Positions 42,700 to 62,929 of a stretch of DNA of 64,000 nucleotides are shown one piece after another; position 1 is the first letter of the stretch, and the number at the start of each line of letters is the position of its first letter. The stretch is from Planctomycetota bacterium. GTDB taxonomy: Bacteria; Planctomycetota; UBA1135. The stretch lies in NCBI GenBank assembly GCA_030748415.1, contig JASMMA010000001.1, positions 1-64,000 of the forward strand, read 5' to 3'. The notes under the pieces were generated by a model. It did not search any database, had not been told where the DNA came from, and saw only the letters and a program-made list of their open reading frames with translations. Position numbers and translations under genes: made by a program.

Positions 42700-45600
42700 T
42701 TAGGAAAGAAGCTTTCGTTCGGCTCGCCAGGACCAAAGCACAGGTACTAAGAACATGCTCATGAGAGCAATGGCCATACCACCAAAGGAGGGGATTGCCA
42801 TGGGAATCATGACCTCGGCACCTTTCCCAGTTGAGCTGAGAACTGGGAGAAGAGCAAGCAAAGTGGTTGCTGATGTCATGAGACATGGGCGCACTCGCCG
42901 AAGCCCCGCATGAACGACTGCTTCTCGCACGCCTTGAACGGTGCCAGGTTTTTCCTGGTTGAAAGTTTGGCGTAAGTAAGTCGCCATGACGACACCATCA
43001 TCAGTTGCAATTCCAAAGAGGGCAAGGAAACCAACCCAGACAGCAATTGAAAGATTGATAGGGTGTACAGCAAAGACTTCCCTCAGGGATTGCCCAAAGA
43101 GTTGAATGTCCAAGAACCAGGGTTGTGAGTACAAGCCCAACAGAATGAAACCACCTGCCCAAGCGACGATTACACCACTAAATACAATTGCGGAAGTTGA
43201 AACGCTTCTGAATTGAAGGTGCAAGACCATTAAGATGAGCAAGAGTGCGAGTGGAAGAACAATAGAAAGTGTTCTTTGTGCATGCACTTGGTTTTTCCAG
43301 CTCCCATCGAACACATAAGAGACACCGGATGGCAATAAAAGCTCACCTTTGCTTTGGGCTTGAAGCAAATGTTCGCGAGCAGCTTCCACAGCTTTGACTT
43401 CGCTCCAACCGGGGTGCTTGTCGAAGACAACATATGCGGTAAGGAAGGTGTCCTCTGTTTTTAGAACTTGAGGACCCCGGACATAGTCCACATTTGCGAC
43501 TTGCTCCAAGGTGACATGGGCACCAGTGGGGGCCAGGATGTGCAAATCTTGAATGGCTTCCAGGGAGTCTCGAGTCTCACGGGCGTAGCGCAATGTGATG
43601 GGGTAGCGTTCTCGCCCTTGGGCTGTCGTTCCCAAAGATTTTCCTCCAACGGCAATCGCCAAAGACTGGTGGATGTCCGCAACATTCAGCCCAAAACGAG
43701 CGGCTGCTTCGCGGTCCACGGATACTTCCAAGTAGGGCTTACCAACGACACGGTCGGCTGCAACCGTATTGGCCTCTACCCCCTCGGCTTCGCGGAGAGA
43801 AGCCTCGATATCTAATGCTGCCCGCTCAAGGGAGATTAGGTTGGGTGCTTTCACTTTGACTCCCATGGGAGCCCGCATCCCACTTTGGAGCATGACAATC
43901 CTTGTCGAAATGGGCTGAAGGAGAGGGGCGGAAGTTGAACCGGGAACCTCCGCGGCTTTTTGGATTTCTTTCCAGATATCTTCCTTCGTGCGAATGTGCT
44001 CCCTCCATTGGCGGATACGGTTACCATCCGAGTCGGTTCCAAACTCAGGTTTGTAATGAATGACCGATTCAACCATGGACAAGGGTGCCGGATCCAAAGC
44101 ACTTTCAACTCGCCCAATTTTTCCAATAACTTGAGTCACTTCGGGAATGGACTCAATTGATTGGTCCATTTTTGAAAGCGCATCCAGGGATTCTCCCATG
44201 CCTGCATGAGGCATTGTCGTTGGCATGTAGAGGAAGGAGCCTTCATCTAGTTGAGGCATGAATTCCTGGCCGCTGTTTTTCCAGACCCAACCCCCAGCAG
44301 CAAGTACGATTGTAGGAGAAACAAGGAAAAGAAGTTTGTTGCTCAAGCACCATCGCAGTATGGATTCATAGCGCTTATGGAAGAGCTCGAATCCCCACAA
44401 AAGGCCAAATGAGGTGCAAAAAACAAAAATGGAGTTTGTTAGAAGACCTGCAGTCGGTCCCAGCGGTTGCCAATGCTCCGCCAAAAGTAAACCAGAGAAA
44501 ATAAGTATTGCCCATGAAAGCGGACCTCGTCGCCCATCATTTTTTTGCTTTCTAGATGGTTTCCAACGATGGAAAAGGAAAGCCAAAACGGGTACTAGAA
44601 GAAGAGAAATGAACAGTGAGCCGAGAAGAGCGTATGTTTTTGTGAAAGCAAGGGGCTTAAATAATCGGCCTTCAGCGCCCGTCATTGTGAATACAGGCAA
44701 GAAGCCAATAACAGTTGTTGCAACAGCAGTCATGACAGCGGAACCAACTTCTGTTGCGGCGGACGCAATGGTTTGAATGCTGTTCTCTCCTTCAGGTGCC
44801 TCCTCTAGGCGTTTTTGAATGTTTTCAACAAGGACAATGCCCATATCAACCATGGTCCCGATTGCAATTGCGATTCCGGCGAGAGCCACAACATTGGCCT
44901 CCACTCCAGTCCACTTCATCCCCAAAAATGCGCAGAGGACTGCCAATGGGAGCACTAGTGAAAGCATGAAGGAACTTCGAAGGTTGGCCAACATGAAGAC
45001 AACTACCAAGATGGTGACCAAAATCTCTTCGCTGAGGGCTCGCTTGAGAGTGTCTAAAGTCTCATTAATGAGCTCTGACCTGTCATAGAAAGGAATGATG
45101 TGAAGTTTGGAAACACGACCATCTTTGAGTGTCTTTCGTGGTAGGCCATTTTCAATTTCTTTAATGGTCTCTTTTACCGCTTGAATCGTGGCCATTGGAT
45201 TTGCGCCGAAACGAGAAACCACGACTCCACCTACGGCCTCATTGCCGCCTTTGTCCAGGGCACCTCTTCGAAGAGCAGGTCCAAGTTGAATCGTTGCGAC
45301 ATCTTGAAGACGAACTGGAATGCCATCCTGAGTCACTCGTACGACTGCTTCCTCTAAATCAGAAGTATCCTCAACCCATCCTAGCCCGCGAACAAGGTAT
45401 TCCACCGCGTTGACCTCAATCGTGCGAGCGCCAACCTCTTGGTTGGAAGAGCGAACGGCGCGCATCACTTGAGATAGTTCAACCCCGTGAGCTCTCATGG
45501 AGTCGGGGTCAACTTCAACTTGAAACTCACGCCGGAATCCCCCAACCGATGCGACTTCGGCGACACCATCTGCGGCCATTAAGGCATAGCGAACGTGGAA

Positions 45601-46137
45601 ATCTTGAACGGTTCTCAGTTCGTCAAGATCCCAGCCACCTGTTGGATTTCCGTCCCCGTCTCGGCCCTCAAGTGTGTACCAGAAAACTTGTCCAAGTGCT
45701 GTGGCGTCCGGGCCCAGTGCTGGTGTGACATCATTAGGAAGTAAGCCCGAGGGAAGGGAGTTTAACTTTTCTAGGATACGCGAACGTGACCAATAAAACT
45801 CGACATCCTCTTCAAATACAACATAGATTGTTGAAAAACCCATCATGGAGAAAGAGCGCACCGTCCGAACTCCTGGGACACCTAGGAGCGATGTCGTGAG
45901 CGGATAGGTAATCTGATCTTCCATATCCTGAGGACTTCTTCCTGGCCAGGCAGTGAAAACAATCTGCTGGTTTTCCCCTAGGTCTGGAATGGCATCTACA
46001 GGGACAGGGTCCCTTGGAATAAAGGAGGGCCCCCAATTGAATGGGCTGACCCCAACTCCCCATATTGCAAGAATGAGGACACCCGTTAAGACGAGAAGCC
46101 TCTGGTCCAGGCAGAAGGTGATGAATCGGTGAAGCAT
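42700..46137 (-). CDS. cusA: Heavy-metal efflux RND pump (CusA/CzcA type)
   Basis: 1145 aa from the ATG at 46137. Twelve membrane segments and two large periplasmic loops; DPVPVDAIPDLGENQQIVF, WPGRSPQDMEDQITYPL, ALAGIAIAIGTMVDMGIVL in helix 4 and FMPQLDEGSFLYMPTT are HME-RND signatures. The helix-4 form is nearer to CusA than to CzcA. By my alignment from memory only the second of the three Cu-binding Met of E. coli CusA is kept (VMLQSGMRAPMG), so the metal is uncertain. An extra hydrophobic stretch lies between helices 6 and 7 (about 530-600). It is the last gene of a four-gene efflux operon. Confidence 0.88.
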   Translation of the reverse strand: MLHRFITFCLDQRLLVLTGVLILAIWGVGVSPFNWGPSFIPRDPVPVDAIPDLGENQQIVFTAWPGRSPQDMEDQITYPLTTSLLGVPGVRTVRSFSMMGFSTIYVVFEEDVEFYWSRSRILEKLNSLPSGLLPNDVTPALGPDATALGQVFWYTLEGRDGDGNPTGGWDLDELRTVQDFHVRYALMAADGVAEVASVGGFRREFQVEVDPDSMRAHGVELSQVMRAVRSSNQEVGARTIEVNAVEYLVRGLGWVEDTSDLEEAVVRVTQDGIPVRLQDVATIQLGPALRRGALDKGGNEAVGGVVVSRFGANPMATIQAVKETIKEIENGLPRKTLKDGRVSKLHIIPFYDRSELINETLDTLKRALSEEILVTILVVVFMLANLRSSFMLSLVLPLAVLCAFLGMKWTGVEANVVALAGIAIAIGTMVDMGIVLVENIQKRLEEAPEGENSIQTIASAATEVGSAVMTAVATTVIGFLPVFTMTGAEGRLFKPLAFTKTYALLGSLFISLLLVPVLAFLFHRWKPSRKQKNDGRRGPLSWAILIFSGLLLAEHWQPLGPTAGLLTNSIFVFCTSFGLLWGFELFHKRYESILRWCLSNKLLFLVSPTIVLAAGGWVWKNSGQEFMPQLDEGSFLYMPTTMPHAGMGESLDALSKMDQSIESIPEVTQVIGKIGRVESALDPAPLSMVESVIHYKPEFGTDSDGNRIRQWREHIRTKEDIWKEIQKAAEVPGSTSAPLLQPISTRIVMLQSGMRAPMGVKVKAPNLISLERAALDIEASLREAEGVEANTVAADRVVGKPYLEVSVDREAAARFGLNVADIHQSLAIAVGGKSLGTTAQGRERYPITLRYARETRDSLEAIQDLHILAPTGAHVTLEQVANVDYVRGPQVLKTEDTFLTAYVVFDKHPGWSEVKAVEAAREHLLQAQSKGELLLPSGVSYVFDGSWKNQVHAQRTLSIVLPLALLLILMVLHLQFRSVSTSAIVFSGVIVAWAGGFILLGLYSQPWFLDIQLFGQSLREVFAVHPINLSIAVWVGFLALFGIATDDGVVMATYLRQTFNQEKPGTVQGVREAVVHAGLRRVRPCLMTSATTLLALLPVLSSTGKGAEVMIPMAIPSFGGMAIALMSMFLVPVLWSWRAERKLLS

Positions 46138-46141
46138 GGGC

Positions 46142-47950
46142 CTAGTAGTCTTGGTTTTGCTCAGAGGACAGGGGGTCAATCACGCGACGCATTTCTCCGC
46201 AGCGCAACATGGATGCACCAAAATAAGGATTGGCAAGCCGGTCTTCGATTTGGAGCCATTCAGCGCCTGTGTTCTCAAAGGCCATTGGACAGAAGAAGAC
46301 TTTAAGTTCGGGCCCACCATCTACGTAACCGAAGCGGTCAAGTGCTGCAATTAAACCTTTACTCGCATGTTCAAAGCTTGCGCGCAGATCTTCGATTCCT
46401 TTTGAGTTCTTCATTCCGAGGCCACCATTGTTCATTTTTGCCGCAAGTGGACTCCAAAGCTCGGTAATTGTTTCGGACAATTCCAATGAAGAAGCAGATT
46501 CCAGTTCGGAAAGGAATCCGGCGACTTCTTTTGACGCGGTATCAAAGTCATCGTTGGCCAAAGCCACTCGAATTGCCAGATAAGGAGTTGCAATTCGACT
46601 TAATGCTTCTTGGAAAGCTTGTGGGACATCTAGGGACATGTCGGCGATTTCACTACCCATGGACATCATGCTTGGCTTTGCCAAGATTTGAAGAGAAGAG
46701 TCCAGCTTGAAGGCGCCGCGAGTCACAATAATTTCCCCTTCTTCAAGACCATCTAGAACGACATAGTGTTCTCCCGCCCTTGGTCCGAGAAGAATCTCCC
46801 GCCCTTCAAAAATTGTTTTTTCTTCTGTTAAGACCTTTAGGTAAACCACTGCTCGGGTGCCCGTCATTAAGGGTGCGGTGCGTGGAATCAAGAGGGGTAG
46901 AGGGCGCGCTGTGCTCCGAGTTACCTGGCCGTTGGAGTCCAGGGCCGCGTTGACAACACCACGAATAAACATGCCAGGCTTGAGGAGCCCCTTTTTGTTT
47001 TCTATTTGAACGCGAACCATCACCGTGCGAGTTCGGAGGTCAAGGGTGGGCTCAATAAAACTAATCTTGCCCATAAATGCCATCCCTGGAAGGGCATCTG
47101 CCTCAAGACTGACCTCTTGGCCAGTTTCTAGGAAGGCGAGGTCAGATTCGTGGGCTTCCAGTTCTGCCCAGAGGTGTTTTGGGTCTGCAACGGAGAAGAG
47201 TCTTTGCCCTCGCTTAACCCATTCACCTTCTTCAGCGAAAACTTCAACGCTCACGCCTGAAACATTTGCGTAAAGAGTGGCCTGCTCTTGGGCGCCCCCA
47301 GCGTATTGAAGGGCTTCCACATCTTCTTTGTTCATTCCTAAAGCAATGAGCCGAGAAAGTGCTGATTCAACGGTTTCCCGGGCTGTTCTTTTCAATGAAT
47401 CTCCGGGCGCCTTTCGTAACCTTTGGGCTGCTTTGATGGATTCCAAATACTCTTGTTGAGCCGAAATGAGTTCAGGACTCCAAATCACGGCAACGGATTG
47501 ACCTTCTTGAACCAATTCTCCTTCATAACTGATTTGCATGGAGTCCAATCTTCCCCCGGCCCATGCAGTAACAGTTTCAAATCGAGTTTCGTCCCAGTTG
47601 AGCTTCCCCACAATTCTTAAAGCCATGCTTGCTTCTCCACGAACCACCTCAGTAGTTTGGATTTCGGCAAGGGCCATTGCTTCTGTCGTGAGAGCGACTT
47701 GGTTTTCTTCTAAATTCCCTGCATTAGGGTCAACGGGAATCAGGTCCATTCCACAAATGGGACAGGGAACTGGCTTGGGGAGTTGGAACTGAGGGTGCAT
47801 CGAGCAAGTCCAAAGAACCGAATCTGCTTCCTTGTTTGTGTCCGATTCTGATGAGGATCCGGTAGGGAATACCGACTCGCAACGGGCCATAAGGAAGCCT
47901 GCAAGCAAGGCCGGAAGAATGAAACGGAGGTTTAGGAGGAGTTTTTTCAT
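46142..47950 (-). CDS. cusB: Efflux membrane fusion protein with two metal-binding domains
   Basis: 602 aa, longer than a standard CusB. An N-terminal membrane/signal segment (about 8-24) is followed by a heavy-metal-binding domain (CSMHPQ and PCPICGMDLIP, residues 50-73), the adaptor core (YEGELVQEGQSVAVIWSPEL, AEEGEWVKRGQRLFSV), and a C-terminal DUF3347-like domain from about 465 with a Cys/Met site near the end (FFCPMAFENTGAEWLQ, MLRCGEM). Both end domains bind Cu-type metals in related proteins, which suggests it captures periplasmic metal and hands it to the pump. Signal Cys at 24 has Arg before it, so lipidation is doubtful. It overlaps the upstream gene by four bases. Confidence 0.87.
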   Translation of the reverse strand: MKKLLLNLRFILPALLAGFLMARCESVFPTGSSSESDTNKEADSVLWTCSMHPQFQLPKPVPCPICGMDLIPVDPNAGNLEENQVALTTEAMALAEIQTTEVVRGEASMALRIVGKLNWDETRFETVTAWAGGRLDSMQISYEGELVQEGQSVAVIWSPELISAQQEYLESIKAAQRLRKAPGDSLKRTARETVESALSRLIALGMNKEDVEALQYAGGAQEQATLYANVSGVSVEVFAEEGEWVKRGQRLFSVADPKHLWAELEAHESDLAFLETGQEVSLEADALPGMAFMGKISFIEPTLDLRTRTVMVRVQIENKKGLLKPGMFIRGVVNAALDSNGQVTRSTARPLPLLIPRTAPLMTGTRAVVYLKVLTEEKTIFEGREILLGPRAGEHYVVLDGLEEGEIIVTRGAFKLDSSLQILAKPSMMSMGSEIADMSLDVPQAFQEALSRIATPYLAIRVALANDDFDTASKEVAGFLSELESASSLELSETITELWSPLAAKMNNGGLGMKNSKGIEDLRASFEHASKGLIAALDRFGYVDGGPELKVFFCPMAFENTGAEWLQIEDRLANPYFGASMLRCGEMRRVIDPLSSEQNQDY

Positions 47951-59427: not shown

Positions 59428-59814
59428 ATGAGTACAGCCTTCTTCGTGTTGAATCTGCTTCTTGTAGTAGCTTGTCTGTTCGCAACCATTCACGCGGGCC
59501 GTCAAAAGGTTCGCGCCGCTCACTATCGATGGGCAGGGGCAATGATTGTTCTTTTGGCTGGGGCCATTGTTCAGGCGGAGATGATTGGGCGCGACTGGGT
59601 TTTTGAAGAAATCCCGAAACAAGTTCACCTCGTAATTGCCAGCTCAGCGTTAATTGCTTTCCCCCTTGTGGCCTGGAGTGGAATCCGGCTCGCCACTGGC
59701 GGGAATCGAGGAACGCATCAGCGCTTCGTATTTTTGTTTATTGCTTTAGTTGTCGGCGCAATTTTGACCGCCCTCTGGATGTTCCATGGGGCTACCCGTA
59801 TTATTGCTGAGTAA
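59428..59814 (+). CDS. Four-helix membrane protein, possibly DUF420-like
   Basis: 128 aa from the ATG at 59428. Four hydrophobic helices at about 4-22, 33-52, 68-88 and 100-120, with histidines at helix edges (RAAHYRWAG, KQVHLVIAS, THQRFVFLF). This spacing resembles DUF420 membrane proteins tied to haem/cytochrome oxidase assembly, but the match is by pattern only. It ends four bases before the lipoprotein gene and likely shares its transcript. Confidence 0.6.
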   Translation: MSTAFFVLNLLLVVACLFATIHAGRQKVRAAHYRWAGAMIVLLAGAIVQAEMIGRDWVFEEIPKQVHLVIASSALIAFPLVAWSGIRLATGGNRGTHQRFVFLFIALVVGAILTALWMFHGATRIIAE

Positions 59815-59818
59815 CCTG

Positions 59819-62800
59819 ATGAAACCGACAAGTATCTTTTTGGGGATTCCCCTCTTGCTCTTTTTTTCTTGTGGCCAGGAAGGGGGCGAGGAAATGGTTT
59901 CCATGGGTGGTATTCAACAAGAGGGGGTTTTGATTCAAAAACAAGATTGGCAATTGCCCGTTTGGGCGGAGGACAATCTCAAGCGGAGAGACCCAGGATA
60001 TGACCGTTGGAAAACGGAGGTTTTGCATGGCAGCGCCAAAAAATCCCTCAAGGCTATTTTTCATCACGCCCTTGGGGTCGCAACCGAAGAGGAACCCACC
60101 TGGGACCAACTTTTAGCTCACGAGTTTGGTGCTTTGCTTCCTCTTGTTCCTGAAAAGAAGAGCCGCTTACATGATGGAGCAGGCATTTTGGTGGAGAGGG
60201 GGAAGGAGTTTTCTTCAGATATACTTGGGAAGGAGAACCTAAAAACCCAGTTTCAAAATTTACTTTCCGTTTTTCAGAACACCAAAAAGACCCATCTTTT
60301 TTTCAAATACCTTGAAGTCAAGTTAATCGGAGAAAATCAATTCGAAACCCAGGCGGTTATTCATTTAGATGATTTGAGTTCAAAACCTTATTCTCAACTC
60401 AATCTGGAATGGCAACTTGGCTGGGAGATTGCCAAAGACGGTGAAACCTTGCGCTTGCAGTCTGTCCGGCCCCGCTCCTGGGAATGGGTTCAAACATCCG
60501 GCCCGCTCTTCTCTGAAGTTACCCAAGCAGTTTTGGGTGATGTCCCTCAATTTAAGGAAGAGATTATGACGGGCGTTGGGGGTTACCAATGGCGCACCGA
60601 CCAGATGCTGGGCAACTCCTACATAGGGGCACAAGGCGTTGCAGTCGGAGATGTGAATGGCGATGGATTCGATGATATTTTTATGCCGCAACAAGGTGGT
60701 ATTCCCAATCGCCTTTACTTGCGGCGTCCTGATGGTGCACTTCAAGATGCAACTGAGTTGGCCGGACTTTCCTTCTTGGACAACACGAGGAGTGCACTCA
60801 TTTTAGATTTTGATAACGATGGCGATCAAGACATCGCTCTTGCAGTAGGCCCAAATCTCTTGATTGGTTGGAATAATGGGACGGGGGCATTTTCAGAATT
60901 TACACCCCTAACAGGCGTAGGGCCAGAGGATGTTTATTCAATGGTGTCTGCCGATGCAGACAAGGATGGGGACTTAGATATTTACTGCTGTCGCTATGTT
61001 CAGGACGGCCTCATTGGTGGAGTCCCTACCCCGTATCACGATGCAGACAACGGTGCGCCCAATATGTACTGGCAAAACGATGGGAACCACCAGTTTTCAC
61101 TTGCAACCGATAGGGTTGGCTTTGGGCACAACAACTCCAAATTTAGCTTAGCCGCTTTGTGGGAAGATTTTGATCAAGATGGTGACCCGGATTTGTATGT
61201 CACCAACGACTTTGGAAAAAACAACCTCTACCTCAACGAAGGGGGTCACTTTCGGGATGTCGCCCAAGAACGAGGAGCGGAGGATTTAGCCGCTGGCATG
61301 GGAGTGACATGTGAGGACTTTGATCTAGATGGAGATATGGACTTATATGTGAGCAACATGTTCTCTTCTGCAGGTCAAAGGATTGTTCCTCAAACTGAGC
61401 AATTTATGGGTGGTGAAAACACGGATGTTCATCAGCATTACCAACGCCATGCAAGGGGCAACACCTTGCTTTCAAATAACGGTGCTGGATTCTTCGAAGA
61501 CTCAACCGACACATCAGGTGCGGCAATAGGGGGATGGGCCTGGGGTGCAAAGTCTGTTGATTTCAATAACGATGGCTTTGCAGACATTTATTCGCCGAAT
61601 GGTTTTGTAACAAATCCTGATAAAGATGACTTGTGAAGTTTTTTCTGGCGACGCGTGACGTCGCAAAGCCCAGCTGAAGCGGGTGATGCTCCTGATGAAT
61701 ACAAGCAAGCTTGGGCGAGTATTCAACACATGGTGATGAATGAGGGCGCCTCATGGAGCGGCCGAGAAGCCAATCGCCTATTCTTGAATTTGGGGGAACT
61801 TCGCTTCGCAGATGTATCTTCTGTGGGGACGGTTGATTTCAAAGGGGATGGCCGTGCTTTAGCAGTCTTGGACTGGGACGATGATGGTCGCCAAGATCTG
61901 GTATTGAAAAGCCGGACCGCCCCCCGGTTGAGGGTTCTGAGAAATGAAATTCAAAACCCCGGCAACTTTATTAATGTGCAACTCGTGGGCGTAACTTCAA
62001 ATCACGATGCGATTGGTGCTCGTGTAATTCTTCAAGCTGGTGGAAAGACTTTCCGCAAAACCCTTTATGGGGGGGAAGGATACTTGGCGCAATCATCAAA
62101 AAGGTTGCACTTTGGAATTGGAGAGGCAAAAACCGTTCAAAAATTGACGGTTCTGTGGCCGGATGGAACGACGGACTCATTCGAGAACATTCCTGCCGGC
62201 TCTCGTCTGGGGATTGTCCAGGGCGAGGACCTTCCATTTATTTTGCCTGAGCGTCGTGCTCCTCGATTTGCTTCTGCGGAATCCAAAACCTTGCACCCAG
62301 AAGGTGGCACCGTCCGCCGCGTTCCCCTTGGGGAGAAAATTCCTCTTTCCCCATGGGGGATCCCGCCTTGGAAGGGCAAAGCAAACCGCAAAGTTGAAAA
62401 TTTAAGTGGGGGGCCTGTTCTCTTGAATATTTGGAGCACTACCTGCCGTGCATGCCTACTCGAACTCGAAGATTTTAAAGAAAATCAAGCACGAATTAAA
62501 AAAAGCGGTTTGCGAATTGTCCCGCTTTGCGCAGATGAAGCCGACTCCCTTGAGCGTGCGAAATCATACCTAGAAGAGTTTGGTCTTCTCAGTGATGCTG
62601 GCTGGGCAGACGACCAATTTAAATCTTCTCTGAAGGCTTTGCTCGATGTTTTATTAGGCCCAAATAGCGGAAGCCCCTTGCCCACTTCCTTGCTGTTGGA
62701 TTCAAAAGGGCAGTTGGTTGCCATTTATCCGGGCCCGGTGGAAATGAGCCGCCTTCTCCAGGATGTTTCTCTGTTGAAAGAGATGGATTCAGGTAATCTG

Positions 62801-62929
62801 CTGGATTCACTTCTCCTAGGAGGCAAACGAATTATCCGGAAGCCTCGTAACTGGAATGGACTTGCCGACGGTTTCCGAGACGCTGGCCTGAAGCGCCTGG
62901 AAGATTATTACCGACGACTTTCGCAGTAG
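59819..62929 (+). CDS. FG-GAP/ASPIC/thioredoxin-like lipoprotein with in-frame TGA (candidate selenoprotein)
   Basis: 1036 aa if the TGA at 61634-61636 is read through as residue 606. Lipoprotein-type signal MKPTSIFLGIPLLLFFSC. From about 270 there are FG-GAP repeats with Ca-binding loops (DVNGDGFDDIF, DFDNDGDQDIA, DADKDGDLDIY, DFDQDGDPDLY, DFDLDGDMDLY, DFNNDGFADIY, DWDDDGRQDLV). An ASPIC/UnbV domain spans about 712-802 (FINVQLVGVTSNHDAIGARV). A TlpA-like redoxin domain follows with CRAC at 876-879 (LLNIWSTTCRACLLEL). The TGA splits the family stretch DDL-x-SFFWRRV, and the frame resumes at once. A separate downstream gene starting at the GTG 61655 has no ribosome-binding site and would begin mid-domain. 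Alternatives are a nonsense mutation or base error. The end overlaps the convergent Fe-S gene by 22 bases. Confidence 0.8.
61634..61673 (+). promoter_or_regulatory. TGA codon plus SECIS-like hairpin
   Basis: After the TGA (61634-61636) a perfect 6-bp stem forms between 61648-61653 (GCGACG) and 61659-61664 (CGTCGC), closing a 5-base loop CGTGA (61654-61658). The loop begins 17 bases after the TGA and has G as its second base. An outer 3-bp pairing (61645-61647 with 61671-61673) can extend it past a bulge. These values fall within the usual limits for bacterial SECIS elements: 16-37 bases to the loop, upper stem of at least 4 bp, and G in the first two loop bases. Confidence 0.55.

Follow-up and report, generated by a model that had tools for sequence, protein, structure and literature searches.

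A probable selenocysteine codon in a CRTAC1-like FG-GAP/ASPIC/redoxin gene of Planctomycetota, and the recurrence of TGA and SECIS-like hairpins in related bacterial proteins

The locus considered here raises a simple question, namely whether the single TGA that interrupts a long gene of a Planctomycetota genome ends translation or is read as selenocysteine (Sec). The gene lies in a window of 64,000 nucleotides, this being the whole stretch of DNA that was analysed, and its features are collected in Table 1. A preliminary description had proposed an otherwise open frame of 1036 codons broken by one TGA, coding that continues for 430 codons into ASPIC and thioredoxin-like domains, one protein on either side of the TGA, and ordinary use of TGA as a stop elsewhere. 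All of these points stood. In the frame 59786–62929, which offers an upstream start at 59786 (1047 codons) besides the ATG at 59819, TGA 61634–61636 is the sole stop before the end; Pfam recognises UnbV_ASPIC and AhpC-TSA beyond it; homologues without TGA cross the site in one open frame; and 15 of the 37 long ORFs listed for the window terminate with TGA. The residues flanking the site read NPDKDDL-U-SFFWRRVTSQSP. A mechanical ORF caller cuts the gene into 59786–61636 and 61655–62929, and plain ORF callers split such selenoprotein genes in two in the same way. The TGA is almost certainly decoded as Sec, a reading to which a probability of roughly 0.9 is given, since the TGA is conserved, the SECIS hairpin covaries, the codons under the hairpin are locked and the Sec machinery is complete.

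Table 1. Coordinates of the predicted selenoprotein gene, its parts and the Sec machinery genes of the same genome (window positions, or contig C11 where given)
Feature	Position	Strand	Remarks
Predicted selenoprotein gene, 1036 codons read through TGA	59819..62929	+	Homologues along most of the length
Probable export signal, lipobox-like FFSC at its end	59819..59872	+	By eye
FG-GAP beta-propeller region, running to the Sec codon	60635..61633	+	Pfam FG-GAP_3, FG-GAP; model pLDDT 93.2
In-frame TGA, probable Sec codon	61634..61636	+	U617 from 59786, U606 from 59819
Bacterial SECIS hairpin (predicted), stem GCGACG/CGTCGC, loop CGTGA	61648..61664	+	Within the codons for WRRVTSQ
UnbV_ASPIC domain	62009..62209	+	Pfam; P0001 residues 742-808
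TlpA/ResA-like redoxin domain	62390..62722	+	Pfam AhpC-TSA; ResA/TlpA matches; P0001 residues 869-979
CRAC (CxxC of the redoxin domain)	62444..62455	+	Kept in 75/79 redoxin-bearing, C-terminus-complete Sec members
selA	C11:134554-135873		Above curated cut-off
selB	C11:98536		Above curated cut-off
selD (L185)	C11:138568-139491		One in-frame TGA; above curated cut-off
tRNA-Sec	C11:139604-139695		71.1 bits, above curated cut-off

The behaviour of the TGA column across homologues is the first line of evidence. A search of 61 genomes, comprising the window's own and 60 relatives, gave 22 top match rows with one TGA each as their sole stop, followed by row 23 (G003:C60), in which a TAG accompanies the one TGA, and row 24 (G058:C86), which has no TGA; two of the top match rows span only part of the protein. 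Among the 30 loci fetched from this search, the aligned codon is TGA in 25, and in the remaining five it is GAG (L039, L040, L043), GCG (L045) or GCC (L046). The alignment of the column that had been suggested at the outset was extended to all loci fetched and scored 98 Sec, 6 Cys and 28 other residues in 132 rows, a count that leaves out gapped rows, requires Trp four residues on in non-TGA rows, covers recognisable members only, favours TGA and includes a few near-copies (L048 repeats L036). Among the best 80 of at least 396 confirmed loci, named records place TGA sites in Planctomycetota (5), Verrucomicrobiota (10 sites, from 9 loci) and Acidobacteriota (2), and one further record is unplaced. 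Sequence comparison thus indicates that TGA, accompanied by its own predicted hairpin, is shared by roughly a hundred related proteins in no fewer than three bacterial phyla. When the three states are mapped on a tree of 116 rows, 15 changes are required, compared with a mean of 27.2 when shuffled, and Sec has therefore been gained or lost repeatedly.

The residues found in place of Sec are Glu, Ala, Gln, Asp, Asn, His, Ser, Arg and Cys. A random residue accompanied by frame damage had been named beforehand as a sign against recoding; the residue does vary, but the frame stays open and undamaged. The closest non-Sec homologues (L039, L040) have Glu, and among close ones Ala, Gln and Asp occur as well. 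Cys is clear in L075 (Myxococcota), L090 (Verrucomicrobiota), L211, L217 and L218, all members of a distant clade with motifs that include DYCTEYWRH and DFCVSFWCH, and the sixth Cys row, L121, is doubtful. The suggestion that CRTAC1-type homologues often have Cys at this position, as DLCSFFWR, was therefore right in one part only: Cys homologues do exist at the Sec position (6 of the 132 rows, the five clear ones in the distant clade), but DLCSFFWR occurs in none of the homologues aligned. The codon preceding the TGA, 61631–61633, is TTG in 18 of 19 orthologues, the median codon identity of Leu in the gene being 0.39, and an effect of this 5' context on UGA decoding is possible. Members with two Sec residues were also considered. 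Six double-TGA rows occur among the matches listed, and in the three inspected (L165, L174, L181) the match ends at or close to the second TGA, which can thus be read as the true stop. As a separate observation, two TGA members lie close together on one stretch, as adjacent copies, in L053, L264 and L269.

The second line of evidence is the hairpin that follows the TGA. It is composed of GCGACG (61648–61653), CGTGA (61654–61658) and CGTCGC (61659–61664), with 11 nt between TGA and stem and 17 nt between TGA and loop. The rules for bacterial SECIS elements in the available text of PMC13188914 comprise a loop of 3–9 nt, a stem of 4–16 bp, G in the first two loop positions, a spacing of 16–37 nt and a minimum free energy of at most −7.5 kcal/mol. 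The window hairpin, with a 5-nt loop (CGUGA), a 6-bp stem, a spacing of 17 nt and −9.6 kcal/mol, falls within all of these published limits, which bears out the initial proposal that it resembles a bacterial SECIS. Energy folding of the single sequence was tried as a test and proved uninformative: the hairpin is not shown in a 70-nt fold (z 0.24), it is present in a 40-nt fold (−9.6 kcal/mol, z −0.32), and a 32-nt fold gives z −1.09. The hairpin is unremarkable by energy, and the support for it is comparative. A search of Rfam at the site returned one chance lncRNA match, under its gathering score.

In the comparative analysis, the hairpin shares one register in 76 of 93 distinct TGA sequences, and 59 of these, differing in the first 29 nt, were aligned. 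Over the six pairs, 99.7% of cells are paired versus 87.0% after shuffling (0 of 500 shuffles as high), a percentage inflated by the register-based choice of sequences, which affects both-side changes less. Such changes occur in four of the six pairs and amount to 40 cells versus 10.3 shuffled, with a covariation score of 0.447 versus 0.189; sliding the partner strand by 1–3 columns abolishes the signal. Further pair types show no excess (8 versus 7.5 shuffled). Moreover, RNAalifold recovers the same helix from this alignment unprompted. In other words, the SECIS structure is kept in homologues by compensatory changes. Within the loop, GT occupies a fixed pair of positions in 59/59 aligned sequences, and it is present in 98 of 100 tallied TGA sites.

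A SECIS filter, set after the hairpins had been seen (stem of at least 5 pairs, loop G then G/U, spacing 16–37 nt), was passed by 91 of the 93 distinct TGA members, the two failures being L052 and L170, compared with an average of 14.6 and at most 23 over 100 synonymous-shuffle sets; 8 of 34 non-TGA homologues passed it as well. Stem strength alone, a cruder test applied per sequence, gave a mean z of 1.9, with many single sequences non-significant. At the codon level, the hairpin codons CGC GTG ACG TCG are identical in 19/19 orthologues; the median codon identity in the same gene is 0.58 for Arg, 0.43 for Val, 0.74 for Thr (3 positions) and 0.45 for Ser. The strongest codon-level constraint lies directly after the TGA.

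The third line of evidence is the presence of the decoding machinery. The search for selA, selB, selC and selD proposed beforehand found all four above cut-offs in the window's genome (G000; 2.46 Mb, 68 contigs, 90.6% complete). As the window is C11:1–64000, selA, selB, selD and tRNA-Sec lie on its own contig, and selD, judged from its in-frame TGA, is probably a selenoprotein itself. In a phylum draw of 392 genomes, at least 84 have, among the matches listed, one with a TGA at any position inside it, and selA is above cut-off in 79 of these 84 versus 160 of the 308 others (Fisher p 2.5e-14, ignoring kinship). Of the five exceptions, G203, G224, G262 and G307 have no match and G321 a weak one. 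Among the first 61 genomes, those with TGA members but without selA are G016 and G022, and G012 and G020 have fragments below cut-off. All of these genomes, from both sets, are drafts, and a real absence is possible. All 16 genomes of the named-record TGA loci L049–L064, at least one of which looks already present in the phylum draw, have selA; the 4/4 non-TGA genomes tested alongside have it too, and selA is therefore not specific to TGA carriers.

Against this background, the selenium-free readings of the site can be weighed. If the TGA were a true stop, the propeller would form one product, and the ASPIC–redoxin part would be either separate or a dying frame. The splitting of the gene by a mechanical ORF caller speaks for such a stop, but non-TGA homologues have a sense codon there and stay in frame across the site, the ASPIC–redoxin part is conserved, a covarying hairpin follows the TGA, and neither TAA nor TAG stands in the column among the sites tallied. 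Termination is thus very improbable, and the in-frame UGA flanked by conserved coding sequence before and after it is one of the features by which selenoproteins are recognised. Ordinary suppression of UGA by a near-cognate tRNA, such as that for Trp, would also yield the long product, and it is rated slightly lower still: no Trp codon occupies the column among the sites tallied, the sense residues seen there being those listed above, the hairpin conforms to the rules for bacterial SECIS elements, and TGA-match genomes are enriched for selA (kinship ignored). A sequencing error, an assembly artefact or a pseudogene might be suspected in a draft genome of 68 contigs. However, the TGA is present in the same-genus genome G001 and in all of the top 23 match rows, it stands at the exact column in 25 of 30 loci, and codon constraint is strongest just after it. 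Since the TGA is found in many separate genomes, a sequencing error is very unlikely, and a defect of any of these kinds can be regarded as negligible.

Decoding as Sec is what the comparison favours, and, given the conservation of the Sec site, the SECIS and the machinery, insertion of Sec is judged near certain, as far as computation can show. SelB with Sec-tRNA would bind the stem-loop just 3' of UGA 61634–61636, and the ribosome would insert selenocysteine instead of terminating. The product would be a CRTAC1-like protein of about 115 kDa at full length, built of an FG-GAP propeller, an ASPIC domain and a C-terminal TlpA/ResA-like redoxin domain, with Sec placed between propeller and ASPIC.

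The membership of the protein in the CRTAC1/ASPIC group is indicated by FG-GAP repeats and UnbV_ASPIC, both above Pfam gathering scores. In the C-terminal part, AhpC-TSA reaches 33.2 bits (cut-off 26) and Redoxin 26.3, slightly below its cut-off of 26.6; the NCBIfam models matched, TlpA and ResA, score far under their cut-offs, and for this reason the redoxin is assigned at domain level only. The protein is probably exported, to judge from its N-terminal sequence. The same-genus orthologue has LSAC at the lipobox-like position, and by eye such a pattern occurs in 5 of the 18 N-termini compared. An AlphaFold2 model from 59 sequences has a mean pLDDT of 93.2 and a pTM of 0.91. In this model, Sec (modelled as Cys) starts helix 606–616, after strand 601–604. 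The first position of a helix lowers the pKa of a selenol. The best solved-structure match to the model is murine CRTAC1 (PDB 9etn), and for the C-terminal domain ResA and TlpA. Five alignment columns that track Sec passed the thresholds, the clearest being 529 and 658. Ala529 (94%) and Ser658 (91%), in P0001 numbering, are kept in Sec members and mostly changed in non-Sec members, where 658 is often Asn. Residues 529 and 658 are candidates for the Sec pocket.

The window's genome holds further members of the family. In a covariance-model scan of it, with a model built partly from the window site, only that site and a paralogue on contig C65 stood out. The C65 paralogue (L163:1950; G000:C65:30949; L163/L253) is a second family member with TGA; the register of its 6-bp hairpin is slightly shifted, and its CxxC is CSAC in the C-terminal part. 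In a third paralogue, L186 (C22), Asn occupies the site and a redoxin match is lacking. Elsewhere in the window, on the minus strand at 42700–47950, lies an RND efflux pair, consisting of an AcrB-family transporter and an HlyD/CusB-type protein that carries a heavy-metal binding domain.

How Sec is used is a question on which the redoxin domain bears. The preliminary description had proposed that Sec pairs with the CRAC of the redoxin in one chain, and this was examined with a redoxin HMM of our own (E < 1e-5, complete C-terminus required). Where the redoxin was recognised and the C-terminus complete, 75 of 79 Sec members retain CxxC versus 2 of 16 non-Sec members, with the reservation that this HMM may miss degenerate domains, because 54 of the 59 alignment rows behind it are Sec sequences with CxxC. 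The association has a Fisher p of 1.6e-11, ignoring kinship; with five independent pairs on the tree, a mean of 2.9 are for it, 0 against and 2.1 equal (median p 0.25, from 5 pairs only). Non-Sec redoxins mostly have D..S or V..S in place of CxxC. The exceptions are L241–L244, with Sec and without CxxC, and L228 and L120, with CxxC and without Sec. L241, L242, L243 and L244 belong to one genus group (G039, G045, G060), in which TGA and hairpin are kept and the redoxin is degenerate.

Ten complete Sec members have no redoxin match and a short C-terminus that ends soon after ASPIC, and no stand-alone redoxin gene was found beside them within stretches of 4.7–7.5 kb. Sec must therefore also work without a redoxin domain, its partner perhaps being elsewhere. 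An idea drawn from Pfam alone, that Sec is kept in redoxin-less paralogues, proved partly wrong, as L064 and L163/L253 have a CxxC unseen by Pfam. Thus, of the proposed pairing within one chain, the joint loss of Sec and CxxC speaks for it and the ten redoxin-less members against it.

These ten members would also suit a different role, in which Sec would bind a metal or a substrate within the propeller and take no part in redox exchange with the redoxin CxxC. The replacements, often Glu, Gln or Asp and not Cys, point the same way, as does the finding of no conserved resolving Cys between residues 284 and 820, where the best column reaches 0.64. Against it stand the joint loss of Sec and CxxC and the presence of Cys at the site in the distant DYCTEYW-type clade; a ligand role is considered rather unlikely. 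Sec–CxxC exchange is favoured to a moderate degree as the likeliest mechanism in redoxin-bearing members. The likeliest job of the protein would then be a redox step at the propeller, where the selenol would be oxidised and then regenerated by the chain's own CxxC. We infer export, a nucleophilic selenol and a relay to CxxC as the elements of this scheme.

The family appears to be new. The initial suspicion that it is absent from standard selenoprotein lists agrees with Table 1 of PMC13188914 (2026), in which 119 prokaryotic selenoprotein families, including those credited to two Haft papers, contain by name no FG-GAP, ASPIC or CRTAC1 entry. Judged by titles and abstract openings, the papers listed in the literature searches include none on a CRTAC1-like selenoprotein family, and the family is new as far as the literature compared reaches, which comprises the available parts of PMC13188914, PMC12013277, PMC4807772 and PMC12758564. 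CRTAC1/ASPIC proteins are numerous in the genomes searched, and one literature search gave no functional study of bacterial ones among the matches listed. The available text of PMC12013277 names selenoproteins lacking Cys homologues as a caveat of deep-Sep. Cys-based discovery may likewise miss the present family, because Glu, Ala or Gln stands at the site in the close relatives that lack Sec.

We incline slightly to the broader view that these proteins form a large unlisted class of exported selenoenzymes, often with more than one paralogue per genome, whose propeller Sec works with the CxxC of the same chain, both being lost together in some lineages. If true, many genes of Planctomycetota, Verrucomicrobiota and Acidobacteriota would be selenium-dependent. 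A catalytic-looking Sec with its own SECIS provides a precise site to probe in CRTAC1/ASPIC proteins.

The predicted protein can be compared with several known systems. Like canonical selenoproteins of the formate dehydrogenase type, it combines an in-coding UGA with a stem-loop bearing G-U in its loop, a spacing of 17 nt and selA/B/C/D in the genome; it differs from them in fold, its Sec belonging to a probably exported propeller protein. With CRTAC1 (cartilage acidic protein 1; murine, PDB 9etn) it shares an FG-GAP propeller followed by ASPIC. The fold match has E 2.4e-26 and a TM-score of 0.71 by target length, and the sequence match covers P0001 residues 661–796; the CRTAC1 sequence alignments listed do not include the Sec site. 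The chain of 9etn, with 551–586 residues, is shorter than the 1036 of the window protein, whose redoxin finds its matches in ResA/TlpA. These thiol-disulfide oxidoreductases, with their CxxC, are of the same kind as the C-terminal domain. In contrast to the UGC-containing TlpA/redoxin selenoprotein families in the available text of PMC13188914 (2026), the Sec of the window protein lies 270 residues upstream of the redoxin.
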